In this document: positions 1 to 24,026 of the stretch, in pieces
Layout of the letters: each line of letters starts with the position of its first letter
Numbering within the stretch: position 1 is the first letter of the stretch
Source of the DNA: a virus
Virus record (IMG/VR): IMGVR_UViG_3300042445_000811
Coordinates: 1 to 25,719 of that record
Strand: one strand, 5' to 3'
DNA length: 25,719 bases
Translations under genes and position numbers: made by a program
The notes under the pieces: generated by a model
Databases searched by the model: none
Told to the model about the DNA's origin: nothing
The model's input: the letters and a program-made list of their open reading frames with translations, nothing else

Positions 1-319
1 TCGTTCGGTCAAGGCTCGCCATAAACCGCGGTTCGCTCTTGAGCCGAACAACGCCGTTGCTCTTGCGGAGCTTCAGTCCAGTCTCCTGCTCGTAATATTT
101 CGCGACCGCATCCTCGAGCAGCACGCCCCGATTGGCTGCAGCTCCGACCTTCTGTTCCGGAAGCGTTCCAGTTTTCTCGCCCCATAGCTGATAGGCGGTT
201 TTGTATGGGCTGACTCCCATCACCGCAGCCATATCGGATGCGCCGATTCCGCGCTTCCGCAGCTGCAACCATTCGGCTGATCGCTGCGGAGCTTTCACGA
301 ACTCGTATCGTTTCGCCAT
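1..319 (-). CDS. YqaJ/lambda-exonuclease-type recombination nuclease (partial, 3' end outside window)
   Basis: The first 106 codons of a minus-strand gene that runs off the window start. The protein begins MAKRYEFVKAPQRSAEWLQL and continues with RKRGIGASDMAAVMG and SPYKTAYQLWGEKTG. The order 'R(S/T)xEWLxLR..GIGASD.A.ilG.SPY.s...LW..KTG' is the N-terminal signature of the YqaJ viral recombinase/lambda exonuclease family. These are 5'-3' exonucleases that work with a single-strand annealing protein in phage recombination. The ATG (319-317) overlaps the stop of the methyltransferase by one base (TAATG) and follows GGAGGGAAGTA, an excellent ribosome binding site. It is the last visible gene of the operon that starts near 4000. 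The catalytic Asp/Glu/Lys core lies further downstream, outside the window, so activity cannot be judged. Family assignment is from recognised motifs; no search was run. Confidence 0.85.
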   Translation of the reverse strand, partial: MAKRYEFVKAPQRSAEWLQLRKRGIGASDMAAVMGVSPYKTAYQLWGEKTGTLPEQKVGAAANRGVLLEDAVAKYYEQETGLKLRKSNGVVRLKSEPRFMASLDRT

Positions 320-1392
320 TACTTCCCTCCTTCTGCGTATTGATTCTCGATCAGGCGGATTCTCCGCCCGATCCATTCTGCAACTGGAGCGACCACCCCG
401 TTCCCGCAACAGCGGTAGCGGTGCGAATCAATCCCCTGCGGCAATAATGCGTCGTCGTCTACCGCTGGCTGTGCCGATTCCGATTTCCGGAATACGGCGG
501 GAGCTCCTGCGGATAGCGTCAGTGGATCAGCGACATCGTTGAACTTAGTTGGCTGCCGACTATATGCACTGGGGAAACAGACGATCGATTCAGAACCGCC
601 GCCGCTATCCCCGCCCTTCGCTCGGAGCGTACCCGCGAGCTTCGTTATTTCGTACTGCCCGAATGCCGTCGCCGTTGCCACGAGTGGCTGATCGTCCAGC
701 CGTCCGGATATCCCATCAGTCGCTCCGTTTCGGTCGGAGTGAGCCGACGGATTGTGTTCTGGCTCTGCATTGATTCGCTCGCGAGCGATTCGAGTGCCTG
801 ATGCAGCTCCGCTGGTAGCACCTTCTCCCTGCGCGCTGCTCGCCGCAGGATGCCGCTCGCAGCTCTTGCACTCAAATAGAACCTCTGCGGCACGCTCGGT
901 TCCAAGATGCCCGACAATGAACACGCGTCGCCTTCGCTGGGCGACTCCGAAGTTTTGAGCATCGAGAACCCGCCACGCCACGCCGTACCCGAGTTCAACC
1001 ATCTCGTGGAGAAGTCGGGCGAAGTCAGCTCCGCGATTGGACGTGAATAGCCCAGGCACGTTCTCCAGCACGAGCCAGTCTGGTCGTCGCTGCTCCACGA
1101 GATCAAGGAACCTGAATGCGAGACTGGATCGAGTTCCTGCAGCGAATCCGCGTCGTCGCCCCGCTGCGCTGAGGTCTTGGCACGGGAATCCCCCGCTCCA
1201 GATGTCTGCGTCCGGAATGTCATCAGCTGATACCTCCAGAATATTTCCCAGATTCGGAGCGTCTGGGAATCGCTCGGCTAGCACTGAGCTCGCGTACGGA
1301 TCAATCTCGGACACGCTCACGGTTGAGATTCCAGCGCGTTCGAACCCAAGATCTAGACCGCCTACGCCGCTGAAAAACGATGCGTGATTCAT
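319..1392 (-). CDS. DNA cytosine-C5 methyltransferase, large (alpha) subunit lacking motif IX
   Basis: 357 aa. C5-methyltransferase motifs are clear: motif I FFSGVGGLDLGFERAG (about 6-21, SAM binding), motif IV GGFPCQDLSAAG with catalytic Cys71, motif VI LENVPG (109-114), motif VIII AQRRRRVFIVG (151-161) and motif X CGNGVVAPVAEWIGRR near the C-terminus. The enzyme would methylate cytosine in DNA using SAM. Motif IX (RRLTP-E-ERL-G-PD), which normally sits between the target recognition region and motif X, is absent from this frame. It is found instead in the overlapping gene 645-1223. This split is known for M.EcoHK31I, where alpha carries all motifs except IX and beta supplies it. The start ATG overlaps the stop of the upstream 59-aa gene (ATGA). 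The region around 170-310 is the variable recognition part and I cannot read a target site from it. Confidence 0.93.
   Translation of the reverse strand: MNHASFFSGVGGLDLGFERAGISTVSVSEIDPYASSVLAERFPDAPNLGNILEVSADDIPDADIWSGGFPCQDLSAAGRRRGFAAGTRSSLAFRFLDLVEQRRPDWLVLENVPGLFTSNRGADFARLLHEMVELGYGVAWRVLDAQNFGVAQRRRRVFIVGHLGTERAAEVLFECKSCERHPAASSAQGEGATSGAASGTRIARERINAEPEHNPSAHSDRNGATDGISGRLDDQPLVATATAFGQYEITKLAGTLRAKGGDSGGGSESIVCFPSAYSRQPTKFNDVADPLTLSAGAPAVFRKSESAQPAVDDDALLPQGIDSHRYRCCGNGVVAPVAEWIGRRIRLIENQYAEGGK
645..1223 (-). CDS. Overprinted beta subunit of the C5 methyltransferase (carries motif IX)
   Basis: 192 aa, encoded wholly inside the methyltransferase gene on the same strand in a different frame. 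Its C-terminus contains RRLTPTETERLMGYPDGWT (residues 159-177), a textbook C5-methyltransferase motif IX, which the alpha frame lacks. Other recognisable segments are SGAGDSRAKTSA near the N-terminus, CSLSGILEPSVPQRFYLSAR and GILRRAARREKVLP. I have seen this type of segment in phage proteins linked to cytosine methyltransferases, but I recall no described biochemical role. The ATG at 1223 is preceded by GGAGGT with an 8-nt spacer, as good as any ribosome binding site in the window, although that DNA is also coding in the alpha frame. In M.EcoHK31I the small beta polypeptide, also encoded within alpha in another frame, holds motif IX and is required for activity. The inference is that alpha and beta form a heterodimer. 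The alternative is a chance open frame, but the intact motif IX argues strongly against that. Confidence 0.85.
   Translation of the reverse strand: MTFRTQTSGAGDSRAKTSAQRGDDADSLQELDPVSHSGSLISWSSDDQTGSCWRTCLGYSRPIAELTSPDFSTRWLNSGTAWRGGFSMLKTSESPSEGDACSLSGILEPSVPQRFYLSARAASGILRRAARREKVLPAELHQALESLASESMQSQNTIRRLTPTETERLMGYPDGWTISHSWQRRRHSGSTK
1232..1237 (-). promoter_or_regulatory. Internal ribosome binding site for the overprinted beta gene
   Basis: On the minus strand GGAGGT lies 8 nt before the ATG at 1223. It sits inside the alpha coding sequence (codons for LEVSA), so its presence is not required by intergenic signals. It supports independent translation of the inner frame. Confidence 0.7.
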
Positions 1393-1568
1393 TGAGCCAG
1401 AGCCTGATCAGCTTTGGGATCAGTGATCGGCGCATCGTCTGGGAGCAGAGCAGTCCTGTCCATAAACGCGTGGCACGGAACGCAAACGAGATTGAGCGGT
1501 CGCGTGATCGCAGCATCCCGATACTTCCGAGCGCGGCACAGAAGGCAGGTGAACTCTTGAATCGGCAT
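1389..1568 (-). CDS. Small CxxC/CxxC zinc-binding protein
   Basis: 59 aa, beginning MPIQEFTCLLCRARKYRDAA and containing LNLVCVPCHAFMDRTALLP. Two CxxC knuckles (C8-C11 and C29-C32, the second followed by His) form a plausible treble-clef or zinc-ribbon site of the kind seen in mini HNH-like or DNA-binding phage proteins; there is no catalytic HNH core. The ATG overlaps the upstream TGA (TGATG) and its own TGA overlaps the methyltransferase ATG by 4 nt (ATGA), so it is locked between its neighbours and very likely translated. Function unknown. Its immediate coupling to the methyltransferase might mean a regulatory or accessory role, but that is only inference. Confidence 0.7.
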   Translation of the reverse strand: MPIQEFTCLLCRARKYRDAAITRPLNLVCVPCHAFMDRTALLPDDAPITDPKADQALAQ

Positions 1569-2828: not shown

Positions 2829-3166
2829 GCGATCACCTTCTTGTAGCTCTCAGCGATAAACGCGCGAGCCGTTGAGGTGATGCCCAGCATCCCGAACACT
2901 TCGCTCAAGCTTGCCCACGAGAACGAATATCCTTCGAGCTTCTGGAGATCGCGAGTCAGGGTGCCGTGTGTCTCACAGAATCCCTGAATGATCCAGCGGC
3001 GGCGACCATCCTGCTGCAGCATCGTGATCGGCTGCTGGCAATCGGTAGCGCGCACTGCTCGCGTGCCCCATTTAGCTCCGCAGGTTGCTACCCCTGCGAG
3101 AATCTCCTGCTGGCTCTGGGTTCGACCAGTCAGGTAGGTCGCATTGAACTTGATTTCGCGGCTCAT
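2825..3166 (-). CDS. Hypothetical protein with CxnC/CxxH metal-binding pattern
   Basis: 113 aa. ATCGAKWGTRAVRATDCQQP and IIQGFCETHG supply C29, C43, C69 and H72, a possible four-ligand zinc site with a beta strand between (RRRWIIQGF). The ATG at 3166 follows AAGGAGGTGCGCTA, an ideal ribosome binding site, and overlaps the upstream stop region. C-terminal half is helical. The neighbouring 61-aa protein has a similar arrangement ending in CTKH, so the two may be relatives. No function assigned. Confidence 0.7.
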   Translation of the reverse strand: MSREIKFNATYLTGRTQSQQEILAGVATCGAKWGTRAVRATDCQQPITMLQQDGRRRWIIQGFCETHGTLTRDLQKLEGYSFSWASLSEVFGMLGITSTARAFIAESYKKVIA

Positions 3167-3351
3167 TAGCGCACCTCCTTAGGTGCTGCCTGATCAGGGA
3201 AGCTATCAACCCGATCGGCAGCGTGCTTTGTGCATAGAGCGACATCATTCCCGAAGAGGAATGCAGCGCGCTCGTTGCAGTGAATCGTGCGGCGACTGCG
3301 CTCCGCAGCCCACACAGTCCGGAATTTGTGGGCGCAGCGGCGGCGGCTCAT
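3166..3351 (-). CDS. Small Cys/His protein
   Basis: 61 aa, begins MSRRRCAHKFRTVWAAERSR. C6/H8, then IHCNERAAFLFGNDVALCTKHAA contributes two more Cys and a His; 'C-x12-C-x2-H' resembles the pattern of the adjacent 113-aa protein. ATG overlaps the upstream TGA (TGATGA), with AAGGCGG upstream. Function unknown. Confidence 0.65.
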   Translation of the reverse strand: MSRRRCAHKFRTVWAAERSRRTIHCNERAAFLFGNDVALCTKHAADRVDSFPDQAAPKEVR

Positions 3352-20453: not shown

Positions 20454-20871
20454 TATCCCCCCTCAAACTGACTCGCGCTGCTGGCGTGAGTCCTAGTTCC
20501 CGTGCGTACTTCTTGACTGACTCCGCATTATCGCGAACGATTTGGTGGAGTGGGTTCTTGACGAAGGTACCATCTCGACCCTTGAGCAGCGGACCAGTCT
20601 TGGCGAGCATCTGTTCCGCTTCAAGGTAGCGCGCCATCGCCTCAGAGTAAAGGCGCAGTAGATCCTTGTCAGCTGAGGTCAGTACCCCAGTAGCTCCGAG
20701 CGCATCCAGTACGCGATTCCAAACGGCGCGCGCATCGTCACGCATATCCGCAGGAGCCGTGAGATTCCCTGCAGCGGGAATCGGCTCCGCGTAGTTGATT
20801 ACGCTAGGGCGAGTTTCTCCGGATAGCACTCGCAGTCGCGTAGGTTTCGGTGCTGGTCCGCGTGCGCCCAT
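20386..20871 (-). CDS. terS: Terminase small subunit, P27 family
   Basis: 161 aa. The start MGARGPAPKPTRLRVLSGET is the typical 'GRp.kPt..k.l.G' opening of P27-type small subunits. PADMRDDARAVWNRVLDALG, LTSADKDLLRLYSEAMARYL and NPLHQIVRDNAESVKKYARE follow in family order. It recognises the packaging site and hands DNA to TerL. The TAATG junction with GP88 overlaps by 1 nt. The upstream HNH gene is a usual partner of this terminase type. Confidence 0.93.
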   Translation of the reverse strand: MGARGPAPKPTRLRVLSGETRPSVINYAEPIPAAGNLTAPADMRDDARAVWNRVLDALGATGVLTSADKDLLRLYSEAMARYLEAEQMLAKTGPLLKGRDGTFVKNPLHQIVRDNAESVKKYARELGLTPAARVSLRGDIDGQANSATAKLDAIIRAARRA

Positions 20872-21593
20872 TATTCCCTGTCCTTCTGCAGCCCTCCGAA
20901 CGTCGCTGCCCCCTGACGCTTTCGGAAATGTCGAATGTTATTGGCTACGATTCCGATTCTATTCGTTGGAGCTTCGATCGCCAACACGTCTGATTCTTCT
21001 TGGTTGAAGTATCCCGCAGCTGCTAACGATTCCGCGTCCGGAAATACTTCAGCGTGTCGGTCGTTCTCGGTATCGATGAGGTGATCTTCCTTACCGCCCA
21101 TCGAATACAACCACTTGAAGTTGCTCGGAGCTCTGTTCTCCACAAGTCGTTTGAACCGACTCACTTCCTTAGTGTAGGCGTAGAAGGTAGTCGTCGGAAC
21201 GGCTGCAGCGATATCCAGCCACGCCTCCAAATATTCGTCGGAGAAAAAGTCTCCTGCGTCGTGAATGCGAACGTACCCGCCGCGCGCACGCTTCGTCGCC
21301 TCAGCGATCATGTCGTCCTTCCAGTTGCTGAGATCATCCAGAACGCGTTTGAGATTGCGTGCGTGGGCAGACTTGACATTCCGGAATAGGAAGGTTCCGT
21401 TTCGTGCATAGCACAACGACGCGCAAGCTCCTGCTTGTGGGCAGGTCAGGATTGTTCGACCGTCATCGAGTCGCGCGCCGAGTGCAGGGATCGTCCAGTT
21501 CCAGACTCCGATTTCACGCAGCTCGCGATTCTGGCGCAGCAACGGAACGCGCTTGACCTTCTCAGTCTGCGTGCTCACTCTACGGTCGTCCAT
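20871..21593 (-). CDS. GP88-family phage protein with Cys cluster
   Basis: 240 aa. LTCPQAGACASLCYARNGTF (C51, C57, C61) and VRIHDAGDFFSDEYLEAWLD, then TTTFYAYTKEVSRFKRL, are the conserved blocks of the phage 'gene product 88' family, first named in mycobacteriophages. The family's biochemistry is not established to my knowledge. The three cysteines followed by YA, and the H-D-x-G-D strand end, recall the layout of iron-sulphur radical-SAM-like phage proteins, but the C-x5-C-x3-C spacing is not canonical. ATG 21593 is used here; a GTG at 21578 overlaps the upstream stop by 4 nt (GTGA) and is nearly as plausible. Encoded between the glycosyltransferase and TerS. Confidence 0.82.
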   Translation of the reverse strand: MDDRRVSTQTEKVKRVPLLRQNRELREIGVWNWTIPALGARLDDGRTILTCPQAGACASLCYARNGTFLFRNVKSAHARNLKRVLDDLSNWKDDMIAEATKRARGGYVRIHDAGDFFSDEYLEAWLDIAAAVPTTTFYAYTKEVSRFKRLVENRAPSNFKWLYSMGGKEDHLIDTENDRHAEVFPDAESLAAAGYFNQEESDVLAIEAPTNRIGIVANNIRHFRKRQGAATFGGLQKDRE

Positions 21594-22465
21594 TTTCCGT
21601 CAACAAGAATCTGTTCCTTCAGACCAAACGACGGATCGTCCGGCAACTTGAAGTCTGCGCGACGAATAAGTTTGTTGTTCTTGAACGGACCATAGTCCAC
21701 GTAATGATGCCAGCGACCGAAACGCCACGCGATCTCCGCAACATCTGGATGCTCATCGACGAGCATCTTGGACTTGCGCAGCGTGCCCTCCTTTGAATAG
21801 AACTCCTTTGTATATCCGCCAGGCTGCGATTGCGTCGCCATCTTGCCCTGCAGGAATGCGTTGAACTGGATCGTGACAAACCCAGCTTTCAGAACTCGCA
21901 ACGAGAGATCAGTATCCTCATTCATTCGCAGCCGCCAGCGGAATGGTAACGAGTTCATAATCAAGCTGCAGGAATAAATGCGCGTGTTCGGAATGAACGG
22001 CGGTTCTGGTTTTCTACGATAGACAAACATTGAGTAGTTCGGTCCAGCGATTCCGACATTCTCGTAGCGATCAGCGAAGTCCTCCATCGCAACGAAAAGT
22101 GCTGCATCGTTGCACGGCACTTTACGATTCCGATTCAGCCGATAGAACGTATCGATGTTGTCATCAATATCCCAGTGCCGCGCAGCTCCATCCTTGATTG
22201 ATAGTTCCCACGCCATATTTCGCGCCGGACCAGCTCCATACGAATCGGTATCTCCGAGATCGTCTAGCGTTTCGTGAATCTTGCGGAACCCAGTATCCAG
22301 AACGATCAGCGTAGCTGCGTCCGTTTTATGCTCGCGATACAGATCGTATTCCTGCTCCTCAACAATGATGTTGTGCGGAATATTTCCTCTGTCGAGAGCC
22401 TTTGACGTGAGCTGATTATTCCAACGCCCCTTGGATGGGATGTAGATCGGATAGCGCGTGTTCAT
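21575..22465 (-). CDS. TET-associated-type glycosyltransferase (TAGT), putative DNA-base glycosyltransferase
   Basis: 296 aa. YPIYIPSKGRWNNQLTSKAL at the N-terminus, GAGPARNMAWELSIKDGA and RHWDIDDNIDTFYRLNRN (acidic metal site near D99-D102), and the later RMNEDTDLSLRVLKAG (NED, 182-184) are the block pattern of the GT-A glycosyltransferases called TAGT. In phages these are encoded with TET/JBP dioxygenases and cytosine methyltransferases and are believed to add sugars to 5-hydroxymethylcytosine. It directly follows a nucleotide-sugar epimerase (TAATG junction), which may supply the donor. No TET-like dioxygenase is visible in this window. The gene lies in the longest stretch without TCCGGA and looks AT-richer than its surroundings. 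The alternative acceptor is a virion protein. Confidence 0.82.
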   Translation of the reverse strand: MNTRYPIYIPSKGRWNNQLTSKALDRGNIPHNIIVEEQEYDLYREHKTDAATLIVLDTGFRKIHETLDDLGDTDSYGAGPARNMAWELSIKDGAARHWDIDDNIDTFYRLNRNRKVPCNDAALFVAMEDFADRYENVGIAGPNYSMFVYRRKPEPPFIPNTRIYSCSLIMNSLPFRWRLRMNEDTDLSLRVLKAGFVTIQFNAFLQGKMATQSQPGGYTKEFYSKEGTLRKSKMLVDEHPDVAEIAWRFGRWHHYVDYGPFKNNKLIRRADFKLPDDPSFGLKEQILVDGKWTTVE

Positions 22466-23385
22466 TACTTCGCAGTTTCGTTCAGGAGATTCCTATACCA
22501 CTCAATCGTTTCGCGGACACCATCTTCTAGTGAAATCAGCTCAGGCGTTTTGTTTTCGTAAAGGTCTGCAAGCGTTGCCGGATCGCCGATGACCATTGAA
22601 CGATCAGGCTCTCCGCCGCGCATTGGAACGTGATTGATAACGCCGCCGCCAACCTGATCCAGCACGACCTTCGCAATATCATTGACCGTCGTGATGCGAC
22701 CAGTTCCCGCCTCAAACTTGATCTTGTTGTCGATATATCGCTCAGGCGTGTATGCATAGCGTCCGTGATCAACGAGCAGCGCGCGCACGAGAACCTCAGC
22801 TACGTCGCGAACGTGGATCATATCCATTACCTGCTCGCCGTCGCCGTAGATTGTGATCGGTCTACCCTGCAGTGCAGGAAGGATAAAGTTGGGCATAATC
22901 TTACGGACTGGCTCCGCCTTCTGACGCGGACCGTAGGCATTGAGAGCACGCACTACCGCGATCTCAGTTTTATGTTCCTTGTTGAACATCCAAGCTAGCT
23001 GCTCGGCTGCGGTTTTCGTAATCGAATAGGTGTTGTTGAACCAGTAGTTTCCGACCGTGATGTAAACGGCGCGCCGCTTGTATCTCCGGACAGCATCAAA
23101 TACGTTGAGCGATCCGATCGTGTTTGTCTCAATCGCTGGCATAGGATTATCGATCGTCTCAGCGGTGCCGAGCACGCCCGACAGATGGATCACGCCATCA
23201 GAAATCGCGACCGCTTCCTGCACGGCAGTAGCATCGCGCACGTCGCCGAGATACTGCTCAACTCCCGCAAGCTCTGCCTTGACCTGCTTGTGATCAAACG
23301 CGATGACATCGATTCCACGAGCCGCGAGATTCTCAACGACGTACTGACCGATGAATCCGGATGCACCTGTGACTAGTACCTTCAC
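22465..23385 (-). CDS. NAD-dependent epimerase/dehydratase (nucleotide-sugar modifying)
   Basis: 306 aa from GTG 23385 (GTGA overlap with the ParB-like gene, GGAAGGGG upstream); the frame is open further upstream but without a sensible start. Rossmann motif VLVTGASGFIGQYVVENLAA (GxSGFIG, 7-13), D50 after LGD, and the catalytic YSITK (Y120, K124) define the extended short-chain dehydrogenase family that includes UDP-glucose/galactose epimerases and related enzymes. RALNAYGPRQ and YGDGEQVMDMIHVRDVAEV are family landmarks. It probably prepares a UDP- or dTDP-sugar for the neighbouring glycosyltransferase. The exact reaction cannot be read from the sequence. The usual Ser/Thr of the catalytic triad falls in ITVGNYW, where the common SS is replaced. 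Confidence 0.9.
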   Translation of the reverse strand: MKVLVTGASGFIGQYVVENLAARGIDVIAFDHKQVKAELAGVEQYLGDVRDATAVQEAVAISDGVIHLSGVLGTAETIDNPMPAIETNTIGSLNVFDAVRRYKRRAVYITVGNYWFNNTYSITKTAAEQLAWMFNKEHKTEIAVVRALNAYGPRQKAEPVRKIMPNFILPALQGRPITIYGDGEQVMDMIHVRDVAEVLVRALLVDHGRYAYTPERYIDNKIKFEAGTGRITTVNDIAKVVLDQVGGGVINHVPMRGGEPDRSMVIGDPATLADLYENKTPELISLEDGVRETIEWYRNLLNETAK

Positions 23386-24026
23386 TTGATTTCCCCTTCC
23401 TCTGTTGCGTAGCGATGAACGCCACGTTCTGCTAATCGTTCCTCCGCTGGGAACCAAATACTGTTTGTCTTGGCAGTAATGCTCTGACCGACGAGTGCCG
23501 CGAACTGCTCGCGCTGCTGCTCGCCAGCAAAGTGTACGACCAACTCAAACTCTGATGTTTTGTCCTGCTGCTCGAACTCAGGCATCCCGACCCATTCAGC
23601 CATTCGCTGCTGACGATCCATCCCGTCTCCGGAATCAATGCGCGAAAGGAATACCTCTAGGTCCTTGGAGCGCACGGATACGTCCTGCAGTAGCTCTGCA
23701 AGTTTCTGTTTGTCCGTAACGGCTGCAGCTCCGAGCGGATCGAGCGTAGCTAGGACCGTAGCTTCCTCAGCCGGACTCAGCTCAACGTAGACGACTGGGA
23801 TTGTTGGAAGCTCTTCACGCAGCGCGAGCGAAACGCGCATGTGCCCATCGACTAGATTCCCCGTCGTTCGATTGACGATCACGGACTGAACCCACCCGAT
23901 CTCCTGCAGCACTCCGGACATTGCGTCCTGCTGATGCTTTGGATGGATGCGCCAGTTCAGTGGATTAGCGAGCAGCTGATCGGGAGACTCCTCCCCGTGC
24001 CCGACGATTCGCGATCGAATATCCAT
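23382..24026 (-). CDS. ParB/Srx-like N-terminal domain protein
   Basis: 214 aa. LLANPLNWRIHPKHQQDAMS, GWVQSVIVNRTTGNLVDGHM and RVSLALREELPTIPVVYVEL form a ParB-like nuclease/CTPase fold; the G-x-L-V-D-G-H-x-R box near 57-64 is diagnostic. Residues 165-214 (FELVVHFAGEQQREQFAALV, then ITAKTNSIWFP) form a second small domain that I associate with phage ParB-like proteins, not with chromosome partition proteins. Such proteins are frequent beside phage DNA-modification genes and terminases. ATG 24026 has AGGAGGGATTT upstream. It begins the overlapping run ParB-epimerase-TAGT-GP88-TerS, suggesting one transcript. Function in modification is inferred from context only. Confidence 0.83.
   Translation of the reverse strand: MDIRSRIVGHGEESPDQLLANPLNWRIHPKHQQDAMSGVLQEIGWVQSVIVNRTTGNLVDGHMRVSLALREELPTIPVVYVELSPAEEATVLATLDPLGAAAVTDKQKLAELLQDVSVRSKDLEVFLSRIDSGDGMDRQQRMAEWVGMPEFEQQDKTSEFELVVHFAGEQQREQFAALVGQSITAKTNSIWFPAEERLAERGVHRYATEEGEIK

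Follow-up and report, generated by a model that had tools for sequence, protein, structure and literature searches.

The window, a 25,719-nucleotide stretch comprising positions 1 to 25,719 of IMG/VR virus record IMGVR_UViG_3300042445_000811, is a fragment of a tailed phage genome with genes for terminase, portal, prohead protease, capsid and YqaJ exonuclease. On its minus strand lies a 357-codon C5-cytosine methyltransferase gene (hereafter alpha), inside which a second gene of 192 codons (beta) is read in the +1 frame. The features of the locus are as follows.

319..1392, minus strand: alpha, predicted catalytic subunit of a C5-cytosine methyltransferase, 357 aa, with motifs I, IV, VI, VIII and X but no motif IX.
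1177..1194, minus strand: motif IV of alpha, GGFPCQ, with the catalytic cysteine.
1057..1065, minus strand: motif VI of alpha, ENV.
919..942, minus strand: motif VIII of alpha, AQRRRRVF.
358..429, minus strand: motif X region of alpha, DSHRYRCCGNGVVAPVAEWIGRRI.
645..1223, minus strand: beta, nested gene in the +1 frame of alpha, 192 aa.
1232..1237, minus strand: Shine-Dalgarno sequence GGAGGT of beta, 8 nt before its ATG (1221-1223).
774..893, minus strand: LSA domain of beta, around VPQRFYLSARAASGILRRAARREKVLPAELHQALESL.
696..752, minus strand: motif IX of beta, RRLTPTETERLMGYPDGWT.
1389..1568, minus strand: small CxxC...CxxC protein just upstream of alpha, its stop and the alpha start overlapping as ATGA.

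Profile searches identified alpha as a member of the C5-cytosine methyltransferase family (PF00145, E=1.1e-53; TIGR00675, E=7e-56), with its motifs in the right order. In 68 aligned alpha sequences, G68, P70, C71 and Q72 of motif IV, the ENV of motif VI, and Q152, R154, R156 and V157 of motif VIII are invariant. By contrast, the only part of beta that Pfam recognises is its motif IX: PF00145 matches residues 143-181 alone, over profile positions 269-298 (E=1.2e-4 in one search, E=1.3e-6 in another). The sequence-only reading had described exactly this arrangement, a methyltransferase lacking motif IX with a complete motif IX in a nested gene behind GGAGGT, and we confirmed that observation.

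Having located both reading frames, we next asked whether beta could have arisen by chance. Scans of viral contigs with alpha and beta yielded 89 loci, and in nearly all of the alpha-like ones motif IX lies in the +1 frame. For 58 non-duplicate genes, the window included, the +1 frame contains no stop codon between the beta start and the beta stop. When the alpha protein was kept and its codons were shuffled synonymously, a mean of 3.2 stops per gene was expected, the mean chance of the beta frame staying open was 6.5% (0.3% for the window), and motif IX was never recovered. Within the clade, stops in the +1 frame are absent from codon -110 to +30 around the LSA domain, where about 75 were expected in all, but are not depleted upstream of the beta start. 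A start codon with a Shine-Dalgarno sequence recurs at codon -115, with ACGGAGGTNNACGCNATG recurrent: 43 of 57 genes have a start with a Shine-Dalgarno sequence of 5 nt or more in the region, compared with 18.6 in the shuffles. This pattern fits independent initiation better than frameshifting. Two outcomes that the earlier reading had named as contradicting it, beta-frame stops in close relatives and motif IX in the alpha frame, were not found within the clade.

Analysis of codon phase further showed that beta is a real gene. Up to motif VIII the third alpha position is the most variable, indicating that alpha is the selected frame. From about 9 codons before to about 38 codons after the start of LSA, however, the most variable position is the first alpha position, which is the third beta position; because these loci were found with alpha-frame patterns, the flip is not produced by the search. 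The flip is also seen between the window and its relative L004: 19 differences in this stretch are 2 synonymous and 17 nonsynonymous in alpha, but 14 synonymous and 5 nonsynonymous in beta. Across motif IX (57 sequences), the beta frame is 97% conserved in protein and the alpha frame 68%, and the third beta position is the variable one. In LSA and motif IX, beta is thus the message and alpha largely the passenger, whereas the reverse holds in the N-terminal half of beta, which shows little codon-level constraint of its own beyond the absence of stops and may be only tolerated.

The sequence-only reading did not recognise that beta has a conserved domain of its own. Between the overprinted N-terminal half and motif IX lies a stretch with the consensus [RK][YF]xLSAKACxGILRRAxKRGKxLPxxLxxAL, which we call LSA. 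AlphaFold2, run on an alignment from which rows of named phage records were left out, predicts LSA as a confident helical hairpin (pLDDT 86-97 over residues 111-150) followed by a motif IX helix (pLDDT about 87), whereas residues 1-110 are of low confidence with no secondary structure to speak of; the model of beta as a whole is weak (mean pLDDT 65, pTM 0.34). In the alpha model, residues 1-176 are confident and superpose on M.HhaI at 1.5 A, residues 177-312 are not folded, and the motif X helix is confident. Searches of the PDB found no relative of LSA by sequence or by fold, and a profile of whole beta reached only motif IX of M.HhaI and other C5 methyltransferases, at E about 0.07-0.1. PHROG family phrog_16143 ('DNA methyltransferase', 139 positions) matches the window's beta at 7e-9 and the nested betas of four other elements at E=1.5e-7 to 3.6e-14, so some annotators seem to have called such ORFs; the family covers only the part up to LSA, lacks motif IX and is not recognised as nested. 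Weak hits to phrog_1008 had raised the possibility of a free-standing beta family, but that family was found neither in the window nor in the control genomes.

We then searched for the nested gene beyond the window's clade and found it where motif IX is retained in alpha: in Roseobacter phage CRP-821, phage P1, a Bifidobacterium plasmid, Virus Rctr41k, phage ct2os315, Vibrio phage 138, Caulobacter phage DMCA, Enterobacter phage CobraSix and Pseudomonas phage D14E, and in Mycobacterium phages Dove and Dallas, where IX and X form a separate downstream ORF. In the latter two the methyltransferase is annotated as two genes, motifs I-VIII and IX-X, in different relative frames in the two phages, with the nested LSA ORF inside the first. 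A scan of viral contigs with one LSA pattern gave at least 592 confirmed relatives; in all 92 loci classified, LSA lies in the +1 frame of alpha (75 with IX in alpha, 3 with IX in beta, the rest with IX elsewhere or not found by the pattern). In bacterial genomes, a scan with a six-row LSA alignment gave 108 confirmed stretches; 77 of the 80 kept are +1, in Proteobacteria, Clostridia, Planctomycetes, Bacteroidota, Acidobacteria, a methanogen bin and others (54 of them with IX in alpha), and in the other three alpha itself is frameshifted. In L105 (FP_Toutatis), L200, L242 and L253, alpha is frameshifted between motifs VI and VIII while the LSA ORF stays open, which may reflect decay, phase variation or programmed frameshifting. 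For the group with motif IX in alpha, 3 stops were seen where about 128 were expected over codons -90 to +30, and the phase flip is the same. Most of these loci were selected with an LSA pattern of ten residues, so that only positions outside the pattern count as independent evidence for them, but the flip and the lack of stops extend well beyond it. None of the nested ORFs was annotated as a gene in the named records viewed with a largely intact methyltransferase gene, and a literature search, confined to an open-access collection lacking most subscription papers, found no description of nested phage methyltransferase genes.

In phage P1 (AF234172), dmt contains at about 66710-67201 an unannotated +1 nested ORF of 163 codons with LSA at the same place after motif VIII; motif IX is in alpha, and P1 Dmt also has an adenine methyltransferase half. 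P1 dmt and three P1-like alleles keep the nested frame open (chance 0.0015 to 0.0135 each, although they are not independent of one another), and some of them diverge sharply just at LSA, as if the ends of alpha and beta are exchanged together.

To examine the order of events, we built a tree of alpha's motif I to VIII region. The window falls in a clade of enzymes with motif IX in beta (14 of 112 non-redundant rows, support 98), apart from two large groups with motif IX in alpha. Motif IX in the beta frame needs at least four changes on this tree, 3 of them forced by well-supported branches, including locus L107 and loci L230 and L233, in which alpha ends after motif VIII and the overlapping beta frame holds LSA, the middle region, IX and X (L233 contains a short run of N). 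The simplest reading is that the nested gene came first and that motif IX was moved to it later, more than once, the window's clade being a derived state. As this is a quick tree of 194 columns with a weak root, that direction is likely rather than proved.

The layout was compared with known two-polypeptide C5 methyltransferases. M.EcoHK31I (YGGCCR; Lee, Kam and Shaw 1995, as summarised in PMC3404938) consists of two polypeptides, a large subunit with motifs I-VIII, X and the predicted recognition region and a small one with only motif IX (PMC3404938); both are reported to be required in vitro. The gene of its small subunit lies inside that of the large one in another frame. The window shares this division of motifs, and its nested gene supplies motif IX and is under selection; it differs in being phage-borne and not part of a seen restriction-modification pair. 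That the window's enzyme works like M.EcoHK31I is well supported by layout; the comparison rests on layout alone, with no claim of shared descent. In a search for M.EcoHK31I-like loci in one enterobacterial family, that of the Xenorhabdus genome carrying locus L225, 19 of 295 genomes matched the beta profile, none with an evident LSA plus motif IX in one beta frame. M.AquI (CYCGRG) is also a two-polypeptide enzyme but is cut within the variable region, with IX and X both in the small subunit (PMC3404938); the window does not have this arrangement, as its motif X is in alpha, whereas L230 and L233 look AquI-like but with an LSA-bearing overlapping beta.

The interpretation offered in the sequence-only reading, an M.EcoHK31I-like enzyme split into two overprinted subunits and carried by a phage, was therefore supported in part. 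It had regarded such enzymes as few, but the nested gene is widespread; and it had treated beta as the source of motif IX, but the nested gene is probably older than the motif IX split and is separable from it, so that beta is more than a motif IX donor. The reading had also pointed to a small zinc protein and a possible hypermodification cassette. The CxxC protein upstream of alpha has the pattern of the Zn_ribbon_8 (FmdB-type) proteins (PF09723, E about 1e-9) found at the same place in many relatives, though the window's own copy gives no Pfam hit. The hypermodification hint is backed only by a TET-associated glycosyltransferase (TAGT) gene (PF20691, E=1.8e-41), which lies next to an NAD-dependent, sugar-nucleotide epimerase-like gene at 21575-23457 and could also point to surface glycosylation. 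A PF12851 search, which had no positive control and in the window covered only a fragmentary record, detected no TET/JBP gene in the window or 29 relatives, and of these 30 records of the clade only the window and L004's contig have TAGT. Hypermodification of the methylated cytosines thus remains a guess and is not general for the clade. A GP88-family protein of unknown function (PF17338, E=4.7e-50) is encoded at 20871-21593, next to the terminase genes.

Taken together, our findings make it likely that the locus encodes an alpha-beta two-subunit C5-cytosine methyltransferase. In this view, alpha supplies the SAM-binding and catalytic core (motifs I-VIII) and the motif X helix, separated by a long stretch that does not fold on its own in the prediction. 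Beta would be translated independently from its own Shine-Dalgarno sequence and ATG; its first ~100 residues overprint alpha's core and are predicted to be disordered, whereas its C-terminal half, LSA plus motif IX, is the functional part, where alpha is mainly a linker. Beta would dock on alpha by LSA and, by supplying motif IX, complete the small, target-recognising domain, to which motif IX belongs together with the recognition region in one-chain enzymes (PMC3404938), so that only alpha plus beta methylates. Our analyses demonstrate that beta is a real, selected gene, how the motifs are divided, that beta is widely distributed and that a form without motif IX exists; cytosine methylation itself, physical association of the chains, the need for both, the DNA target and a role in protecting phage DNA from host restriction, the last from phage biology in general, are inferences. 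In most relatives alpha already has motif IX, so beta's older function cannot be motif IX donation.

Among the alternatives, the one that survives best, although we consider it unlikely, is that beta is made and selected but acts as a separate protein, for example a regulator or anti-restriction factor. Most relatives have LSA-beta although alpha has all motifs, and a free-standing LSA protein exists in Mycobacterium phage Thibault (gp104; 2935-3180 of its locus), where an HNH endonuclease gene interrupts the methyltransferase gene and the LSA part survives as an 81-codon gene with a new start. In the window's clade, however, beta carries an almost invariant motif IX that alpha lacks, LSA is in one frame with IX and X in L230 and L233, and no LSA was found away from methyltransferase genes in the loci examined. 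Less likely still is a ribosomal shift from alpha into the +1 frame, producing a fused I-VIII/LSA/IX protein. Codon-level constraint in the beta frame does become clear only about 40 codons before LSA, but stop depletion reaches back to the beta start codon and ends there, the Shine-Dalgarno sequence and start are enriched at one position, and a fusion would lack motif X. Although part of the +1 similarity upstream of motif VIII may be a shadow of conserved alpha codons and G+C-rich DNA has fewer stops, a chance shadow as the source of the beta frame is contradicted by the synonymous shuffles and by the phase flip at LSA and motif IX, which cannot come from selection on alpha.

What is already known is the two-polypeptide methyltransferase with motif IX in its small subunit; what appears to be new, against the open-access literature, is a conserved, mostly unannotated nested gene with the LSA domain. 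A broader reading, which we consider probable, is that this gene lies inside C5 methyltransferases of many tailed phages and prophages across bacterial phyla, including P1 dmt, and encodes a general partner subunit, which in some lineages, the window's among them, has also taken over motif IX, turning a one-chain enzyme with an accessory into an obligate two-chain one. A trick known from one bacterial enzyme is thus probably widespread. Overprinted genes of this length with an independently conserved domain are, to our knowledge, rarely documented in tailed phages, and this one sits in a textbook enzyme family and apparently in P1, a model phage. It gives many natural cases of a gene's motif being passed to an overlapping frame, and it raises the question of whether the well-known reaction of phage C5 methyltransferases needs a second protein that annotation pipelines do not see. 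If so, phage methyltransferases expressed from recoded synthetic genes may be inactive or altered because recoding destroys beta.
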